Shown here: piece by piece, positions 2,375 to 12,533 of the stretch
How the letters are laid out: the number at the start of each line of letters is the position of its first letter
Numbering within the stretch: the first letter of the stretch is position 1
Source of the DNA: a virus
Virus record (IMG/VR): IMGVR_UViG_3300047284_000142
Span: 1 to 20,222 of that record
Direction: 5' to 3' (one strand)
DNA length: 20,222 bases
Notes under the pieces: model-generated
Databases searched by the model: none
Told to the model about the DNA's origin: nothing
Seen by the model: only the letters and a program-made list of their open reading frames with translations
Position numbers and translations under genes: made by a program

Positions 2375-3460
2375 ATGGCTCCTGATTACAAGGAGCGTTG
2401 GGCAAAGGCAGGGCGGGGAGAACTTATCTCCCCGCCCACTTCGTCTAAGGCTTCATTCAACTATTATGTACCTTTGGTGCGTGCGGCAGATGATTATGTT
2501 CACTGGGCGCAGACACCACACGAACGAATCTATTTGGGGTTCGCAGACATTGACCAACAAATGCGTGGTATCGCCCCGTCCGAAATGTGCCTGATTAACG
2601 GCTACAGCCACTCGGGTAAGACGCTGGCGTTGCTTCAGATTCTAGTGGCGAACCGTGATAAGCGTGTTGTCTATTTCTGTCCTGATGAGCCACGCACTTT
2701 GACGCTGATTAAGTTGGCGTGTGTGACACATGGACTTGATGCCAATATGCTTGAGCAGCAGGTAGCCAATAACGACCATGAAGCCATTAGCGTTCTTAGG
2801 AATACAGCCCTAGAGTATTTCCCTAACTTGGCTGTCTTTGACCAAACGATTTCGCTTATTGATATGGAGCGTGCGTTAGCCGAGTACTCTGATGCTATCG
2901 GTGACCCACAACTAATCGTTGTGGACTACTTGGATTTGATTACTGGTGGTGGCGAAGACATACCTAGCAAAGCCAATAGTATCAAGGCTTTCGGCAAGCG
3001 TCACAATGTACCGTTGCTTGTGTTGCACCAGTCATCCCGTACAGCAGGTGCTGACGGCAAGAAGATGACCATTAGTTCAGGTGCGTTCGGTGGTGAACAG
3101 CAGGCTACCCACATTATCGGTGTGCGCCGTAAGCGATTCGAGATTGAGGGCCATATCCGTGAACTCCAAGAAAAACTCGACAGGGCAACCAACACCGAGC
3201 GTATTATCGAAAAGATTGAGTCGCTTCAGTATGAGTTGCGTATCCATCAGGATACTGTCACGCTGAACCTTGTGAAGTGTAAGCGTCCCGCGTCACAGTT
3301 GCTGGATGATATGGACTTCGTTATTGAGTCAGGTACGGGCAGGCTCTCTAGGTTGGAAAGCGGTGTGTTACCATACCGTGATGACCGACCCAAGGTACAG
3401 TCTTCCGAGGATTTGGCAGAGACACAACTAACCGTAGCGGATGTATTAGCAGATTGGTGA
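2375..3460 (+). CDS. DnaB-like replicative helicase (RecA-type ATPase)
   Basis: A 361-aa RecA-fold ATPase expected to unwind DNA at the fork. Walker A is GYSHSGKT (76-83), followed by the catalytic-glutamate region YFCPDEP (E105), Walker B LIVVDYLDL (180-188) and the sensor-type motif LLVLHQSSR (H218-Q219). Residues 255-290 form a charged, probably coiled-coil insertion (EGHIRELQEKL... IEKIESLQYEL). It lacks the N-terminal DnaB domain found in full-length bacterial DnaB (about 450-470 aa), as many phage versions do. It starts 6 nt after the previous stop with a weak ribosome site. An 11-bp GC-rich hairpin covers codons 13-21 and may affect its translation. The primase follows 3 nt later. Confidence 0.92.
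   Translation: MAPDYKERWAKAGRGELISPPTSSKASFNYYVPLVRAADDYVHWAQTPHERIYLGFADIDQQMRGIAPSEMCLINGYSHSGKTLALLQILVANRDKRVVYFCPDEPRTLTLIKLACVTHGLDANMLEQQVANNDHEAISVLRNTALEYFPNLAVFDQTISLIDMERALAEYSDAIGDPQLIVVDYLDLITGGGEDIPSKANSIKAFGKRHNVPLLVLHQSSRTAGADGKKMTISSGAFGGEQQATHIIGVRRKRFEIEGHIRELQEKLDRATNTERIIEKIESLQYELRIHQDTVTLNLVKCKRPASQLLDDMDFVIESGTGRLSRLESGVLPYRDDRPKVQSSEDLAETQLTVADVLADW
2411..2437. repeat. Inverted repeat, 11-bp GC-rich stem, 5-nt loop
   Basis: GGGCGGGGAGA (2411-2421) pairs perfectly with TCTCCCCGCCC (2427-2437) around ACTTA. It begins 36 nt after the helicase start codon. It is one of the most stable predicted hairpins of the window and has no U-tract. Confidence 0.85.
2906..2924. repeat. 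Inverted repeat, 7 bp with 5-nt loop
   Basis: CCACAAC (2906-2912) and GTTGTGG (2918-2924) around TAATC, inside the helicase gene at Walker B. Confidence 0.7.
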
Positions 3461-3463
3461 ACT

Positions 3464-4354
3464 ATGAATCAGGTAGTGCGTTTTGCGGAACTGTTCCGTG
3501 GTCGTGGCGATGTATACGGCTCCAATGAGGGTGGCTGCATAAAGCAGCCACTCACCCCCAACATTCTAGAGCAACACTTTATTGACCAGCCCATCGGTGT
3601 TTATCCGATGATGCGTGGCGGTGACGACCAGTATTATGTTGCGTGGGGTTGCGTAGACTTTGACACAGCAGACGCAGAACAACACGCATTCGCATTACGC
3701 TCCGCATTGGTGGAGGCAGGTGTCACTTCTTGGATTGAGCGTTCACGCTCCAAGGGTTATCATGTTTGGGTCTTCGCCCTGTCACCTGTCTCCGCTGAAA
3801 CTATGCGTCATGCTCTGATTGTTGCCTGTAATGTTGCCGAGGTTCCTACAACCGAGGTCAATCCCAAGCAGACCACCCTCAAGCGTGGACAGTACGGCAA
3901 CTATGTTCGCCTACCCTACGCTTATCTTGACAACGACACAGACCGCCAACGAATGCTTGACGACACAGGCAATGTTGTACCATTGGATGTGTTCCTAGAG
4001 TTGGCTTATGTCAATCGTACACCACCAGCACTGCTCCAGCGTATCGCTGATATGTATGTGCCACCAGCACCGTCCGAACGCCAGTTCGGCGGTTACGAGT
4101 ACGATGCTACGCTCGATGACGCTATGAGCGTCCTATCACCCTTGGGCAAGGTTATATGGCGTGACGGTCCGCTCGAGGGCCGTGACCGTTCCAGCACCCT
4201 AGTTAAGTTGGCTTATGAGTGTGCCAACACTGGGCTTAACCCCAGCCAAACCAAGATTGTTCTGAAGACGGCTGACCAGCGTTGGGGCAAATACTATCTG
4301 CGCCCTGATGGTGAACTGGAAATTGATAAGATAGTAGTCAGGGTACATTCGTGA
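3464..4354 (+). CDS. AEP-superfamily DNA primase
   Basis: A 296-aa protein with the signature of archaeo-eukaryotic-type primases: an acidic pair in WGCVDFD (D65, D67), then IERSRSKGYHVWVF (S94-F104, the S..G.HvW motif), then NYVRLPYAY (N146-Y154). These match the catalytic metal-binding, Ser/His nucleotide-binding and third-motif positions of the family. The C-terminal region (about 235-296) has a helical domain ending in QRWGKYYLRPDGELEIDKIV, a pattern often found at the end of phage primases. It should make primers for the adjacent helicase's fork. No DNA polymerase is visible in the window. Its stop overlaps the GTG of the next gene (GTGA). Confidence 0.88.
   Translation: MNQVVRFAELFRGRGDVYGSNEGGCIKQPLTPNILEQHFIDQPIGVYPMMRGGDDQYYVAWGCVDFDTADAEQHAFALRSALVEAGVTSWIERSRSKGYHVWVFALSPVSAETMRHALIVACNVAEVPTTEVNPKQTTLKRGQYGNYVRLPYAYLDNDTDRQRMLDDTGNVVPLDVFLELAYVNRTPPALLQRIADMYVPPAPSERQFGGYEYDATLDDAMSVLSPLGKVIWRDGPLEGRDRSSTLVKLAYECANTGLNPSQTKIVLKTADQRWGKYYLRPDGELEIDKIVVRVHS
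3531..3551. repeat. Inverted repeat, 8 bp with 5-nt loop
   Basis: GTGGCTGC (3531-3538) and GCAGCCAC (3544-3551) around ATAAA. One G-T and one G-C pair can extend it. It lies at codons 23-30 of the primase, a position similar to the hairpin in the helicase gene. Confidence 0.75.
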
Positions 4355-4524
4355 GAGCATTCGACGCACCAAAACGCGCTAAGCGTAAACGCACCAGACA
4401 ATTCTGGGCAAGCATCCCCAAAGCATCTGATATAAAGATTACACACGCCGATGGAACCGTAACCTATGAGAAGGTTAGCAACAAGGCTTCGGCGGCAAAA
4501 GTTATTAAAGGCGGCAAAAAGTGA
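4351..4524 (+). CDS. Small basic 57-aa protein
   Basis: The GTG at 4351 overlaps the primase stop (GTGA), and the TGA at 4522-4524 overlaps the next GTG in the same way, so both ends fit the operon's coupling pattern. The product begins MRAFDAPKRAKRKRTRQFW, a strongly basic segment, continues with a beta-type stretch (DIKITHADGTVTYEKV) and ends SAAKVIKGGKK. Function is unknown; nucleic-acid binding is plausible from charge alone. It was found from the overlap pattern because it is very short. Confidence 0.75.
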   Translation: MRAFDAPKRAKRKRTRQFWASIPKASDIKITHADGTVTYEKVSNKASAAKVIKGGKK

Positions 4525-5105
4525 CAACCATACTAGCGGTACAAGGTGACGGTTGGGCTGTAATCGGAGCCGACTCACAATGGTCAACCGATGACGGACG
4601 CATCGGCAAATCAACACAACCCAAAGTTGTGTCCATCGGCAAATACCTAGTGGCAATAGCAGGATACACCCGTGGCGCAAACATCGTCCAACACACCTTC
4701 ACGCCACCAGCACCCCCACGCACACAAGGAATCAAACTCAACAAGTTTGTTGTCAGCCAATTCATCCCCGCCTACAAGGCGGTGCTGGAAAGCAACGGCA
4801 TCGGTCTGCCACAATACGACAGTGAAGTAGCAAAAACCCCTATTGATACCCTTATGGTGGTCAACGGGGTCATCTATCAGATTGATGACGATTACGGCAC
4901 AGACATGGACAGCAACCGCTTATACGCTATCGGGTCTGGCAGCGATTATGGCCTAGGCGCACTCCAGGCTCTAACCGATAAGAAGCGTTTAACAATCCCT
5001 GTCGCCAAGCAGTGCATCCTGAAGGCTTTGGCTATTAGTGCAAAGTTTGATTCAGGTACTGGCGCACCATTCCATGTGTTCACACAGACTCACGGTAAGC
5101 CATGA
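4521..5105 (+). CDS. HslV/20S-proteasome-like Ntn-hydrolase
   Basis: A 194-aa protein resembling HslV and proteasome beta subunits, which are N-terminal-nucleophile threonine proteases. It begins MTTILAVQ, as HslV begins MTTI, so Met removal would expose Thr2 as the nucleophile. Other matches: GADSQ with D18 (equivalent of D17), K35 near the expected Lys33, a conserved YLVAIAGYTRG turn (G48), LYAIGSGSDYGLGALQAL (S139 in the IGSG motif) and AKFDSGTGAP near the C-terminus. Length is slightly above HslV (about 175 aa). No HslU or other unfoldase is visible nearby. It starts at GTG 4521 and its stop overlaps RusA (ATGA). A non-proteolytic Ntn-hydrolase role cannot be excluded. Confidence 0.85.
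   Translation: MTTILAVQGDGWAVIGADSQWSTDDGRIGKSTQPKVVSIGKYLVAIAGYTRGANIVQHTFTPPAPPRTQGIKLNKFVVSQFIPAYKAVLESNGIGLPQYDSEVAKTPIDTLMVVNGVIYQIDDDYGTDMDSNRLYAIGSGSDYGLGALQALTDKKRLTIPVAKQCILKALAISAKFDSGTGAPFHVFTQTHGKP
4588..4606. repeat. Inverted repeat, 6 bp with 7-nt loop
   Basis: CCGATG (4588-4593) and CATCGG (4601-4606) around ACGGACG, early in the HslV-like gene. Further 6-bp hairpins lie at 4733-4749 and 4768-4782 of the same gene. Confidence 0.5.
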
Positions 5106-5437
5106 GCGAACACGGAATCTTCGTCCCAGTTAAACCCATCCCAAAGGGTCGCCCACGCATGACGCGTTATGGGCGTGTCTTCACCCCGAAGACAACACTG
5201 GACGCAGAAGCAATAATCAGGGAGGCGTGGGACGGACCGTGCTTTGAAGGCACGGTCCAACTCCAATGCTTATTTACACCTGATGGTACACACATTGTAG
5301 TAACTGAACTCAACGGTAACGAATCAAAGTTGCGAGGCGACTTGGACAACTATGTGAAACTACTGATGGACGGACTGAACGGAGTAGCATGGCTGGACGA
5401 CAAGCAAGTAACAATCATAACGGCGGTAAAACAATGA
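5102..5437 (+). CDS. rusA: RusA-like Holliday junction resolvase
   Basis: A 111-aa protein with the RusA hallmarks: an N-terminal basic KPIPKGRPRMTRYGRVFTP segment and the acidic motif GDLDNYVKLLMDGLNGVAWLDDKQV, which carries the catalytic aspartates (D-x-D-N...K...D...DD). RusA dimers cut four-way junctions, so here it would resolve branched replication or recombination intermediates before packaging. It is slightly short (E. coli RusA is 120 aa): the protein ends soon after the DDKQ motif at IITAVKQ. This may be a trimmed C-terminal strand. It is coupled by ATGA overlaps on both sides. Two strong hairpins lie inside it. Confidence 0.93.
   Translation: MSEHGIFVPVKPIPKGRPRMTRYGRVFTPKTTLDAEAIIREAWDGPCFEGTVQLQCLFTPDGTHIVVTELNGNESKLRGDLDNYVKLLMDGLNGVAWLDDKQVTIITAVKQ
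5176..5194. repeat. Inverted repeat, 7 bp with 5-nt loop
   Basis: TGTCTTC (5176-5182) and GAAGACA (5188-5194) around ACCCC, at codons 25-31 of rusA. Confidence 0.7.
5234..5258. repeat. Inverted repeat, 9 bp with 7-nt loop
   Basis: GGACCGTGC (5234-5242) and GCACGGTCC (5250-5258) around TTTGAAG, inside rusA, 39 nt after the previous hairpin. Confidence 0.8.
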
Positions 5438-7109: not shown

Positions 7110-7357
7110 ACGAAGAAGACTTTGACCCCGACGACATTACAGAACTCGAGGGCATCTTTACTCAAATGATAGCCGACAACGAAGACGGCTTCATTGTTGA
7201 GTTCGGCATCAGCGTCCTAAGTGCCAAGGAACTGATTAACCTTTGGAATAAAGCGAACCTTGGTTCGCGTGCAGCCCAAAAAGCATCATGGATGGAATAC
7301 TCCAAGATTATGGGCGAACTAAAGAAAGCGTTGGAATCTAAGGATTCTGACGATTAG
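7106..7357 (+). CDS. Unknown 83-aa acidic protein
   Basis: ATG 7106 is chosen because of the ATGA overlap with the preceding frame. An earlier in-frame start at 7052 lacks this and gives a basic, unlikely N-terminus. The product is acidic at both ends (MNEEDFDPDDITELE, ESKDSDD) and helical in the middle (AKELINLWNKANLGSRAAQKASWMEY in two pieces). It is the last gene of the + arm. Its final 20 nt overlap the end of the converging late operon. No family is recognised. Confidence 0.75.
   Translation: MNEEDFDPDDITELEGIFTQMIADNEDGFIVEFGISVLSAKELINLWNKANLGSRAAQKASWMEYSKIMGELKKALESKDSDD
7253..7268. repeat. Inverted repeat, 6-7 bp with tight loop
   Basis: GCGAAC (7253-7258) and GTTCGC (7263-7268) around CTTG. 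It is 70 nt before the point where the two arms collide, but there is no T-run. Confidence 0.55.
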
Positions 7358-10300
7358 ATTCAATAATCTTCTTCAACTCTGATTCAAGTTCACCCAAGTT
7401 AAACTGACGCCTAATTGCTTCACCACGCTGTTGGGTTTCACCAATCTGCCTGTAAGGGATACCGAACCAGTTAAGCACTGAGGACAGCCAACGCTCCTCC
7501 AATGATTCCTTACCGCCCAGTTTGCCACCCGACAAGCGAAACGCTTGTGCCAGCGGTGGCAACGCCTGTTCAATAACATAAGTTACACGCGGGTCAATCA
7601 TCACCTTACCGCTATCGGGGTCAACCTCTGCGTACTCTGTCCCCGTCAAACCCTTCAACAGTTTACCAAGCGCAGCCTCAACACCGTTGGCAGTGCGCTT
7701 ATCACCAAACGGAATATCCAAAGCCACCTGTTTGCCAAGCCACAACTCTGCTGGCACACGCAACAATGGTGTCATCTGACCAATCAAACCTGATGGTGTA
7801 GCAATCTGCTTCAAATTTTCAGCCAACCGCGTCATCGGCAAATCAGGTGTAATCACCGCATTAAGGCCCGCCCCAAGCGGGCCGTACTTCTGAATCCAAG
7901 ACGGAACCATCAACTCAGCATTGACAGGAAACTCACGCTTAAGGCGTTCATACTGAACATAAGCCTTAGGGCGAGTCATCATCTGCGTAACCTGCAACGG
8001 GATGTTACGGCTCGTCCAAATCCAGAACGGCACAACACGCTTAACCTTTTCGTCCATAGTGGACAAATCGGTATAATCGAAGTGGACACGCCTAATGCGT
8101 GCCACAGCCTCATCAAAACTCATTCCACGGCGCACCGAATCCAACGCCATCGGGATACGCAACGCGTTCTCAACAAGGTCATTCTTACGGCTGTAGAATC
8201 CCAAATAGGCATTGCTACCGCGCTTGATGATGTTGCCCTTTGCGCCCTCAAGACCGAACGCTGGCAGTGCCATATCATCGGACTGTCCTCGCCCTGCCGC
8301 GGCAACAATCCTTTGTACAAGTTCTGCTTCTGCTTCAGCATCAGCACCCACAATACCTGCGCGTTCCATCCAGTTAGCATAGGTACGACCGTCACGAATC
8401 TTACCCTTTCGTTCTGCTTGGGCGAAAGCCCAACGCAGACCCTCACGCATTTCAGGCAAACCAACACCATCAGCATAATTCATAAAGGTTCCAGAGAACC
8501 CGTTACGCATAAAGAAGCCGACGCTGGCGGTAACATAACGCTTCCAATAGTTATTCAGCGCAGACACATACTTCCAAAACTTCTCAGCCTCAGCCGTGTC
8601 ACGCAACTTCTTCAGGTTCGGACCCCATCTATCAGCAACTTCTTGAGGAACCTGCACACCCATGCCTTCAAGCATCTTCCAGCCACGGTCAGCATCTTCC
8701 CAAATAATCTTACCAATTTCACCAGCCTGAGCCTTCGTCAACTTCAACAAAGTGTCTGACAACTCCGCATCAATCTTACCCAACTCGACTTCACCCTTAT
8801 GAACCAGGGCAACCACACGGTCATAAGCATCCTTAAGGGTAGGGTCAAAGTCCAGCAGCGCACTATTATCCAAAGCCCGCTGCACCTGCTTAACCCAAGC
8901 CGCGTTACTCGCACCAGTCGAACCCTTAGCAGGCTTACGGGACAACAACAACCGTATACCTTCAAGTTCATTCTCAATCATGCGGCCCATAGTCGCATCC
9001 CAATTATCCATCGCCCTAGCATTATCCATAACCAGCGGCAAACTTTCCTCAAGCGACATCATAAGAGATTCCGCCTCGCCAGACAAACCATATTCGCCAG
9101 CCAGCACATTGTCAACCTGACGGTTGACATTATTTGTTTCCCTAGCGAGGACAGAATCCATAGCAGCCAGTTGCTTACGCGCCTTCTTGACAGGAATATC
9201 CCGACCCCCATACCTGACTGTCTTCGCTGCTCTTGCGCGGTCCAAAAGTTCATCAGCGGGATTCGTAATAGAATCCAACTGCTTAGCCAACTCGTCACGA
9301 GACTGCTGAAGAGCCTGAAGGTCCAAACCTTCTGTACGCAAGGCATCGCCTTGCGACATCAAATCCAACTCATAAGACTCGGTAGAACCATCCAACAACT
9401 TACGAGCCAACGGATTGTCCTGAACAGACTGCCACTCGTCCGTCAAACCCATACCAACCGCAGGGGTCGGCGTATCCTTCGGAAGAACAACAGCCCACTC
9501 CGAACTGATGCCATCCAAATCGGGGAAAATAGTGCGCATAGGAACAAGTGAACCACGGAAACCGCTATCAACAGCATCATCGGTCATCCCACGAATAAAG
9601 TTATTCAGCATCGTGTCAGCAACGACATCGCTGTTATCAATGGAAAACTCGGCGGCTACAGCCTGAAAGTTCTCACGCAACCAACCGAAGAAACTTTCAA
9701 TTTCAAACTCGGTCAAATCCACGCCCTGTTCAACCGCGTCATCAATCATGCGCTGGAAATCAAAAACACCCTCAAGGAAATCAGCCTTAGCGGGGCTGAC
9801 AATACGAAGCGTATCATCAACAACACCACCATTAGCGATAGCAGAATCAACCACGCTAGCCCAAGTTGGGTCCTCAATGCCGGCTTCACGCCAAACCCTA
9901 TTGATGGTGTCAGAAATAGTATCAGCACTCAACAAACTTTGCATCATCTCGGGATTGCGCAAATCCACCAAATCTTCTTCGGGGATAGCATGACCCATCA
10001 AACTGTCAGGCATACGACTAAAAGTACCAAACTCATCATCAACAGGCTTGGTTGTCCAAACCTGAAATGGTGCTTCAACATCAGTGGCATCGGGAACAGA
10101 ACCCCAAATCACACCATCATTAGCGTAACTAGCGGACTCACGGACATCACCCAAAACACGCACCGCTTCCAGTTCCCTGTCTACGCGGTCCAATTCATCC
10201 ACAATCCTTTGACGGCTAGAATCAAACTGTGCGCCACTTGGCATCTCATCCAATGACGCACGCAACCGCGTGCGCTCAGCCAACAAGCGTGCCTGCTCCC

Positions 10301-12533
10301 TTGGTTCAGACTTACCGCCATTCATCATACGCTTAATACGCTCAGCAAACCATTCAAGATTCTTGCCCTCAAGTTCCGAAGCATCAGCGGAGACACCAGC
10401 CAAACGGGCATACTCGGTGCGGAAATCCTGAAGCAACGCATAACGGCTAGAAGTATTACCAGCCAACGCATCACGCAACTCCTCGGCGGCACGAAGATAA
10501 CCGCCCCACAAATCATCAAACTCACCCTTAGCATCCTGCGAAACCCTAAGGCTCTTCAAACGGGCAGACTCAATAATATCCCAAACCTCATCCAACTGAT
10601 TCGTAATATCATCAATCTCGCCATCCCTAAGGGTCTTCTCAACATAACGACCCTCGAGAACATCATCCAAAATCTTAGCGAAATCATCAGCGGCAGATGC
10701 TACACCTTCACGCGTACCAGCCAACCTAGCCTGATTACGCACCTTCGCCCTAAGAGACTTCTGTGTCTTTGTCAGAATCTTGCTAATACGGGTCAAGTCG
10801 GCAACAAGTTCTTCATCCTTAACAATCTCTTTGATGATTGTTGGCTTGATAGCATCTGCACCGAACGCCATAGCGCGGTCCACATATGCAATACGGCTCT
10901 TGGCGCGGGCGATGCTTTCAGCATAGCCCTGCGCAATCGAACCAAGGTCATCCTCAAACCATTTGAATCCGACTTCCTCCATCGAAATCTTATTAAGACC
11001 GTCAATCGTGGCGTCGTCAACTTCTCGTCCAAGGAACTTGGATTTGCTAATAACATTGCCAGCCTCATCAACCACGGGTGGGCGAATCTTGCGGAACATT
11101 AAAGTACCACTAGACTCCAGCAAATCACGCTCCGTCAATTCCGCTGAACGATACCCCGAACGAGTAACGGTATCACTACCAAGAGTCCATGCCTTTGCTT
11201 CTGGTGTAATCTTATGGAAAATGTGGTTATCAATATAACCCATTTCTGCTACAGTCAAACCATAGGTGTCGCTAAGATTGCGTTGAAGCGCAACAACTTC
11301 GTTCCGCAACTTATTCGACCAACCCTTGTAGGCCGAATAAACTTCCTTTGCTGGTTCGCTCAGACCGTCATCGCTGCCATGTTCAATAGCGCGGTAAACT
11401 TGACCAATCGTTTCATCGGTCAACCCCGCTTCGCGGGCGTTGTCCATCATGGTAGCAATTTCACCAATGGACTGTCGTAGCGTAGCCGAAAATGTACCCT
11501 TTGCCCAATCGCTAGCAGACATCTCCATAAGACCCTGAACAAACTCGGGCTTATAAATGTTTTGTGTCGCAGCGCGACCAAAACCCTTAAGAGTCAAATC
11601 CTTCAAAGACTCAGTAGTAGTCTTTTGTAGTGCCAAACGACCAGGACCAGTACTTGCGACAACATCGCCAATCGTTGCGCGGACAGGAGCCAAAGTATAA
11701 CGCCAAGCCTTAGCCAAACCACTAGTATAAGGAATTTCCTTACCCATATACTTTACTCCAGCGGCAATACCTTCAGCCTCACGAATATTCTTGGGAATAG
11801 CCGTAGCACCATAACGAGCAACATTAGACAACAAAGGCTTAAGTTCTGGATACTTTGGCACAAGCAAAGCAGCCTTGGATGCCAAAGCAAATCGTGTCGC
11901 CTTAGAGGCGGCACTCGCACCCAAAGTCAAATAAGTTGTTGGGTCAAAAATAGTATCCAACGCAAAGTTGCCAATACCACGAACCCATTTATTCTTAATG
12001 CCCAGTGCATCAGCAGCCTTAAAGTTATCCATGCGCGACTGCGCAACAAGGTCGTCAAGGCTGAACCCACGACCTGACATCAAGTCGGTCAATTCCTTTG
12101 TGAAGGATTGACCAGCAGACTGGAATGGCTCAACAGCCTTGGAATAGATGTTGAATGCACCCTTCGCGGCGGAGACAGGAACCTTGGATACTGCGCTAAG
12201 CAGGTCGCCCAAAACCCCCCTATCCTTAACGGATGCCTTACCGCCAGCCGCAATTTCCAATGCGGCGGCACGAGCCTTAGACTGCTGAGCAAAACTCAAA
12301 GCAGAATTAGCAGCCAACCCCGAAACAACCTGCTTAGTTCTGTTTTCTAAACGGGTTTGTTCCTGAGCAAAGGTCGTTTTACCGTCGCCCTTACCACCTT
12401 TACCGCCAACACCCAACTGTCGAATAGTCCCATCCGCTTTAACATAAATCGGATTACCATTCTCGTCGAACCCATATCCCTTGGGCAGAGCCTTGCTAGC
12501 CGTCTTAGAAAACGGTGATGGTGTGACAGCCAT
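7338..12533 (-). CDS. 1731-aa probable internal virion / ejection protein
   Basis: By far the largest gene. It starts at ATG 12533-12531, overlapping the upstream stop (TAATG). The N-terminus is Gly/Lys-rich and looks disordered (residues 40-55, GVGGKGGKGDGK). Residues about 60-500 are Ala-rich helical, and several coiled-coil or Glu/Arg/Asp-rich stretches lie between 560 and 1300. A C-terminal block at 1482-1511 (RVHFDYTDLS ... RVVPFWIWTSRN) matches a motif common in giant phage internal and polyvalent proteins (the FDY..L....R...PF..W...N pattern, seen in LPD38-type domains). I see no lysozyme/transglycosylase or protease active-site motif. Size, last position in the structural operon and helical content suit a protein ejected with DNA, as T7 gp16 is; this is inference. 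Confidence 0.85.
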   Translation of the reverse strand: MAVTPSPFSKTASKALPKGYGFDENGNPIYVKADGTIRQLGVGGKGGKGDGKTTFAQEQTRLENRTKQVVSGLAANSALSFAQQSKARAAALEIAAGGKASVKDRGVLGDLLSAVSKVPVSAAKGAFNIYSKAVEPFQSAGQSFTKELTDLMSGRGFSLDDLVAQSRMDNFKAADALGIKNKWVRGIGNFALDTIFDPTTYLTLGASAASKATRFALASKAALLVPKYPELKPLLSNVARYGATAIPKNIREAEGIAAGVKYMGKEIPYTSGLAKAWRYTLAPVRATIGDVVASTGPGRLALQKTTTESLKDLTLKGFGRAATQNIYKPEFVQGLMEMSASDWAKGTFSATLRQSIGEIATMMDNAREAGLTDETIGQVYRAIEHGSDDGLSEPAKEVYSAYKGWSNKLRNEVVALQRNLSDTYGLTVAEMGYIDNHIFHKITPEAKAWTLGSDTVTRSGYRSAELTERDLLESSGTLMFRKIRPPVVDEAGNVISKSKFLGREVDDATIDGLNKISMEEVGFKWFEDDLGSIAQGYAESIARAKSRIAYVDRAMAFGADAIKPTIIKEIVKDEELVADLTRISKILTKTQKSLRAKVRNQARLAGTREGVASAADDFAKILDDVLEGRYVEKTLRDGEIDDITNQLDEVWDIIESARLKSLRVSQDAKGEFDDLWGGYLRAAEELRDALAGNTSSRYALLQDFRTEYARLAGVSADASELEGKNLEWFAERIKRMMNGGKSEPREQARLLAERTRLRASLDEMPSGAQFDSSRQRIVDELDRVDRELEAVRVLGDVRESASYANDGVIWGSVPDATDVEAPFQVWTTKPVDDEFGTFSRMPDSLMGHAIPEEDLVDLRNPEMMQSLLSADTISDTINRVWREAGIEDPTWASVVDSAIANGGVVDDTLRIVSPAKADFLEGVFDFQRMIDDAVEQGVDLTEFEIESFFGWLRENFQAVAAEFSIDNSDVVADTMLNNFIRGMTDDAVDSGFRGSLVPMRTIFPDLDGISSEWAVVLPKDTPTPAVGMGLTDEWQSVQDNPLARKLLDGSTESYELDLMSQGDALRTEGLDLQALQQSRDELAKQLDSITNPADELLDRARAAKTVRYGGRDIPVKKARKQLAAMDSVLARETNNVNRQVDNVLAGEYGLSGEAESLMMSLEESLPLVMDNARAMDNWDATMGRMIENELEGIRLLLSRKPAKGSTGASNAAWVKQVQRALDNSALLDFDPTLKDAYDRVVALVHKGEVELGKIDAELSDTLLKLTKAQAGEIGKIIWEDADRGWKMLEGMGVQVPQEVADRWGPNLKKLRDTAEAEKFWKYVSALNNYWKRYVTASVGFFMRNGFSGTFMNYADGVGLPEMREGLRWAFAQAERKGKIRDGRTYANWMERAGIVGADAEAEAELVQRIVAAAGRGQSDDMALPAFGLEGAKGNIIKRGSNAYLGFYSRKNDLVENALRIPMALDSVRRGMSFDEAVARIRRVHFDYTDLSTMDEKVKRVVPFWIWTSRNIPLQVTQMMTRPKAYVQYERLKREFPVNAELMVPSWIQKYGPLGAGLNAVITPDLPMTRLAENLKQIATPSGLIGQMTPLLRVPAELWLGKQVALDIPFGDKRTANGVEAALGKLLKGLTGTEYAEVDPDSGKVMIDPRVTYVIEQALPPLAQAFRLSGGKLGGKESLEERWLSSVLNWFGIPYRQIGETQQRGEAIRRQFNLGELESELKKIIESNRQNP
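7865..7883. repeat. Inverted repeat, 7 bp GC-rich
   Basis: GGCCCGC (7865-7871) and GCGGGCC (7877-7883) around CCCAA, inside the 1731-aa gene. Confidence 0.7.
9337..9355. repeat. Inverted repeat, 8 bp with 3-nt loop
   Basis: CGCAAGGC (9337-9344) and GCCTTGCG (9348-9355) around ATC, inside the 1731-aa gene. Confidence 0.7.

Follow-up and report, generated by a model that had tools for sequence, protein, structure and literature searches.

A proteasome-like peptidase gene conserved in the replication operon of a podovirus lineage

HslV and the 20S proteasome need AAA+ partners. A survey by Fuchs, Alva and Lupas described 22 new proteasome-like families, several of which occur in phages; none of the new homologues had a co-occurring AAA+ partner (Fuchs et al., 2021; PMC8665760). 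BPH, another proteasome-like protein, forms double rings and bound epoxomicin but left standard peptides and casein uncleaved (PMC5777263); intact catalytic residues are thus no guarantee of general protease activity. Proteasome-like proteins also travel with phages as mobile carriers: phage homologues are already known from the 2021 survey, and HslV genes without HslU were reported in a Salmonella jumbo phage in 2020 (PMC7823757). We found no phage member with a demonstrated function, substrate or assembly in the searchable literature.

The locus described here comes from a freshwater phage of a podovirus group with genomes of about 38 kb, and lies in the window, by which we mean the whole 20,222-nt stretch that was analysed. 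A gene with a GTG start at window positions 4521-5105 (plus strand) encodes a 194-aa protein with the N-terminus M-T-T-I, which the initial annotation had taken for an HslV/proteasome-like protease; family profiles and predicted fold bear this out. The HMM search proposed there as a check gave significant matches to Pfam PF00227 (Proteasome; 1e-7, 32.2 bits against a cut-off of 22.4) and to PHROG 1040 ('peptidase HslV family'; 6e-20), and the latter profile matches every member of our viral peptidase alignment (36/36). When the PDB was searched with the single sequence BPH ranked first, and a profile of the family had BPH (5ovu) as its top match (2e-10), while the best viral structure model found with Foldseek is an annotated phage HslV that is 58% identical (A0A6J7XBU4). 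Taken with the residue conservation described below, these Pfam, PHROG, PDB profile and Foldseek matches establish that the similarity to the proteasome family is not due to chance. The protein scores far below the cut-offs of the narrower models, including the HslV equivalog TIGR03692 (a weak 31.3 bits versus 157.75) and two 20S proteasome beta models (TIGR03634, 26.4 bits versus 224; TIGR03690, 14.3 bits versus 191.9), and PADLOC assigned it to no defence family. The likeness to HslV seen at the outset thus holds for the fold, the MTTI start and the active site, but the protein is not HslV proper and is nearer to BPH than to HslV by both structure and sequence.

The assignment had been made to depend on an Ntn-hydrolase fold and on a conserved Thr2. 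An AlphaFold2 model of the peptidase (pLDDT 90, pTM 0.87) and its Foldseek matches give such a fold; the best match is BPH 5ovs (8e-13, TM 0.75/0.79), and ranks 1-4 are all occupied by BPH entries 5ovs and 5ovt, with HslV coming after. The model contains helices H1 (residues 50-59), H2 (71-91), H3 (141-152) and H4 (159-176), among them both of the helix pairs that form the ring contacts of BPH and HslV, and it ends in a strand (184-190) with no helix H5. A predicted pore loop (residues 92-108; window 4794-4844, plus strand) lies between H2 and the next strand, where model confidence is lower (72-76). This 17-residue loop has a net charge of -1, is only mildly acidic and lacks the run of acidic residues found in BPH; the family mean is 16 residues, with 3.4 acidic and 1.4 basic. 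Since an archaeal proteasome-like protein is a ligase (PMC8665760) and BPH is inert on general substrates (PMC5777263), the phage protein might be a highly specific processing enzyme or a connectase-like protein ligase dedicated to a single target of phage or host origin, and not a degradative barrel. We consider this doubtful, as connectase lacks H1 and H2 and carries a two-helix S3/S4 insertion, whereas the model has both helices and no such insertion.

The active-site residues singled out initially (T2, D18, K35 and Ser139 of an IGSG motif, I137-G138-S139-G140) and the MTTI start are all where they were said to be. Thr2 (codon at 4524-4526), the predicted nucleophile, which would become Thr1 once Met is removed, is Thr in 49 of 50 homologues and Ser in the remaining one, so the conservation on which the assignment hung was found. 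Asp18 (4572-4574; proteasome Asp17) and Lys35 (4623-4625; proteasome Lys33) are invariant (50/50 each), and Gly48 (4662-4664; proteasome Gly47, of the oxyanion hole) is Gly in 47 and Ser in three. Both glycines of the Gly138-Ser139-Gly140 motif (4932-4940) are invariant; position 139 is Ser in 37 sequences, Thr in 11 and Cys in two. These counts combine a non-redundant set of 44 sequences, reduced at 92% identity, with six further homologues; within the set of 44 the figures are 43/44 for Thr2 (the other being Ser), 44/44 for each of Asp18, Lys35, Gly138 and Gly140, and 41/44 for Asp177. Thr conservation in the viral scan is partly selected, as N-terminal patterns were used to find the sequences; 12 highly diverse phage homologues gave an alignment too divergent for scanning. 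Homologues free of this bias were reached by tblastn in annotated phages and through the AAA_5 gene discussed below; because those reached through a different gene show the same conservation, it is not an artefact of searching for MTTI.

A catalytically dead decoy or structural subunit had also been put forward. Nothing specific speaks for it beyond the existence of inactive homologues of the fold, such as the proteasome alpha subunits, and the nucleophile (Thr or Ser), Asp and Lys are each retained in 50 of 50 homologues down to 18-25% identity. The gene is under purifying selection (dN/dS 0.07-0.13 between the window and its relatives), and with an invariant active site a dead decoy is therefore unlikely; we would give it hardly any weight. 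There is also no sign in the sequence of a propeptide, since the frame 5' of the start stays open for only four codons and is also short in most of the relatives' genes. We found no RNA structure at the start codon. Judged by its sequence, then, the window protein is a genuine, conserved and active-site-complete member of the proteasome-like Ntn-hydrolase family.

The gene sits in a replication operon, all on the plus strand, in which a DnaB-like helicase (2375-3460; PF03796, 3e-14) and an archaeo-eukaryotic-type (AEP) primase (3464-4354; PF22548, 1e-19) lie upstream and a RusA-like Holliday-junction resolvase (5102-5437; PF05866, 2e-14) follows downstream; the helicase and RusA are syntenic, as is the primase in all lineage members. 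The primase is of the TOTE type, and adjoins the DnaB-like helicase in what is a podovirus-like genome. An ORF for a 57-aa basic protein (4351-4524) ends inside the peptidase start in a GTGA overlap of 4 nt, and the peptidase stop overlaps the RusA start, again by 4 nt. In relatives the order is AAA_5, DUF7192, further genes, a RecB-like exonuclease, a 143-aa protein, DnaB, AEP primase, a variable stretch, the peptidase, another variable stretch, RusA, p172, a sigma-like gene, p168 and p83. A test independent of the peptidase, seeded on AAA_5, found the peptidase in 7/7 loci with at least 8.8 kb of downstream sequence, two of which (L014 and L103) are on contigs already known to be peptidase-positive; one further AAA_5 locus with 7.4 kb downstream (L101) has none, which is compatible with the spacing. 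The peptidase is a syntenic core gene of the replication operon in this podovirus group, between the AEP primase and RusA. Of the operon position given in the initial annotation, the replication setting and the downstream rusA stand, but the basic protein is not a fixed neighbour.

That small basic ORF switches from one side of the peptidase gene to the other between relatives. No homologue of it was detected in five of them (L003, L014, L016, L104 and L002, a 95%-identical relative), and it lies downstream of the peptidase in four others (L106, L108, L112 and L116), which rules it out as a partner.

Contigs of the lineage measure 37-39 kb; in one of 38,112 bp (G040) the AAA gene is found at 33.6 kb but the peptidase at 3.5 kb, an arrangement that circular permutation of a complete genome would produce. 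The window therefore amounts to about half a genome of ~38 kb, and its first position falls shortly after the AAA and DUF7192 genes of the close relative L002. The structural operon runs on the opposite strand to the peptidase and converges with the replication operon at 7338-7357. It includes a 1731-aa protein (7338-12533, minus strand) whose sole family match is a short one to a tail-fibre PHROG. Phages commonly encode prohead or virion-maturation proteases, and one distant group has the peptidase after tail-like and lysis-like genes; however, the placement within the replication operon, on the strand opposite to the structural genes, and a complete related podovirus that lacks the peptidase (MW202803.1) make such a role for the window protein very improbable.

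That no unfoldase was in view, as first remarked, is true of the window, which covers about half a genome and has an AAA+ gene just outside it. Looking for one among the neighbours in related phages, as had been suggested, revealed no HslU/ClpX-type gene: PF07724 (ClpX/HslU-type) did not reach its cut-off in any of 25 contigs that carry the peptidase, nor in any of seven from the lineage. Among AAA+ genes the closest encodes a MoxR/NorQ-type AAA_5 ATPase and, followed by DUF7192 (L002, 99-2242; L003, 1611-3775), lies 6-9 kb upstream of the peptidase in relatives; AAA_5 is found ~9-12 kb upstream in several other peptidase-bearing contigs. Given the AAA+ dependence of HslV and 20S, the peptidase could be an ATP-dependent protease served in trans, either by a host AAA+ protein (ClpX, Mpa/ARC or HslU) or by this phage ATPase with DUF7192. 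The ATPase, however, is CbbQ/NorQ-like by fold (in a moderately confident model) and PHROG 249-like by sequence rather than HslU/ClpX-like, its gene and that of the peptidase are never adjacent, and contigs of 85-98 kb carry the peptidase without AAA_5. Conversely, MW202803.1 (DnaB 42% identical) has an ATPase-like gene, DUF7192, DnaB, primase and RusA but no peptidase. The 634-nt unannotated gap between its primase and RusA genes was considered as a missed homologue and holds unrelated small ORFs. DUF7192 occurs in 99 annotated phage records, 88 of them Mycobacterium phages, and by comparison of organism names Tunturi_5 is the only phage on both the DUF7192 and the peptidase lists. The pair is thus not a dedicated partner; we mostly reject this candidate, as each side occurs without the other, and likewise the converse, a peptidase belonging to an AAA_5/DUF7192 system, as the three genes do not obligately co-occur. 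The boldest version, in which peptidase, MoxR/NorQ-type AAA+ and DUF7192 form a phage-made, ATP-driven degradation machine with a CbbQ/NorQ-class remodeller feeding a proteasome-like barrel, strikes us as a long shot, and we know of no such pairing in cells.

A need for an ATPase partner, assumed initially, does not follow for the BPH-like branch, because neither BPH nor the other homologues of the 2021 survey have a known AAA+ partner (PMC5777263, PMC8665760). Hijacking of a host unfoldase, also raised then, becomes less likely in its HslU version if the host is actinobacterial, because the same survey marks no HslV in Actinobacteria (PMC8665760). On balance, we regard an unfoldase acting in trans as possible but rather unlikely.

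The reading that we favour, with modest confidence, is a BPH-like threonine peptidase that forms a barrel, works without an unfoldase and is made together with the replication proteins. Host methionine removal would expose Thr1, and the observed equivalents of Asp17, Lys33 and Gly47 would complete the site, with the chemistry expected of these residues. By analogy with BPH and HslV, self-assembly of the subunits would most likely give a closed double ring that encloses the active sites. Because its start and stop overlap neighbouring genes, the peptidase is probably translated along with the replication proteins. There being no dedicated unfoldase, it most likely works independently of ATP-driven unfolding, which is also the presumed mode of BPH; its substrates, let in past the pore loop, may be host or phage polypeptides that are unfolded or short, or particular ones. 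A role at the replication stage, for example in the removal of a host or defence protein or in peptide turnover, seems more likely than one in virion maturation. While Met1 processing, ring assembly, ATP independence, timing and substrate are all inferred, the family, predicted fold, residue conservation, selection, synteny and, across the contigs examined, the lack of HslU-type genes are direct observations.

Outside this lineage the peptidase adjoins WhiB, thymidylate synthase, ligase, or tail-like and lysis-like genes in different phage groups, so no neighbour is constant across the whole family; such differing context is expected of a self-sufficient enzyme. In three unrelated phages (L009, L011 and L013) it is adjacent to thymidylate synthase or at most three genes from it. 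WhiB is present in 24/41 records searched and, among 14 control genomes, was matched in Corynebacterium only, which suggests that much of the clade is tied to actinobacterial phages; no WhiB was seen in the window's own lineage, and the link stems from other records of the clade. Two scans of genome contigs gave no bacterial homologue except one, a clade member (L099, 6380-7018) on a contig binned with a gammaproteobacterium in a genome record that also holds a WhiB gene; this is probably a misbinned actinobacterial phage contig. The peptidases of two relatives, L106 (15400-15990) and L108 (16559-17149), branch in the tree within the clade formed by L017, L019, L060 and L099, at a distance from that of the window, while the DnaB, primase and RusA of both are of the window-lineage type. 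The simplest reading of these sequences is in-place replacement by a distant allele, which suggests that function rather than exact sequence has been kept.

What is new here is the large clade linked to actinobacterial phages, a setting in which the 2021 survey found no phage specific to Actinobacteria that carries AAH (PMC8665760), together with the core status of the gene in one lineage and the in-place allele replacement. As a family find the peptidase is ordinary; it is of moderate interest because the lineage makes a good and tractable test case: the podovirus group is compact, the gene is fixed there in a replication operon and under purifying selection, and the complete related phage without it provides a natural comparison.

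Compared with known systems, the peptidase shares with the HslV of HslVU the MTTI start, the catalytic residues, the GSG motif and a compact fold without H5, but differs in its score (31 bits against a cut-off of 158), in its longer pore loop and in that no HslU was found in the lineage. Anbu has the C-terminal helix H5 where the model ends in a strand. PPH is likewise phage-borne, of group I and without an accessory AAA+ protein, but measures ~140 aa and lacks H2, whereas the window protein has 194 aa and H2 at 71-91 (PMC8665760). By its scores, length and helices, it thus belongs with none of HslV proper, 20S beta, PPH, Anbu or connectase. AAH, compared here by description, is also phage-borne, of group I and without an accessory AAA+ protein (PMC8665760); the actinobacterial link of the present clade is no more than suggestive of membership. 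Salmonella phage pSal-SNUABM-04 resembles the window's phage in its annotation, an HslV without an HslU (PMC7823757). Members of PHROG 1040, A0A6J7XBU4 and the protein of Actinomycetia phage DSL-LC01 belong to the same family and differ in sequence and context. The window protein and BPH (5ovs, 5ovt, 5ovu; PMC5777263) are only ~20% identical, the pore loop is less acidic than the five-acidic run of BPH, and the gene, unlike any BPH member listed in the 2021 survey, is carried by a phage, where it lies in a replication operon. Even so, BPH is the best match in both sequence and fold among solved structures and has in common with the phage protein Thr1, no propeptide, a pore loop longer than that of HslV and no known unfoldase partner; as part of the favoured reading, we would assign the peptidase to group I of Fuchs et al. 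(2021), as a compact protein of the BPH/HslV type.
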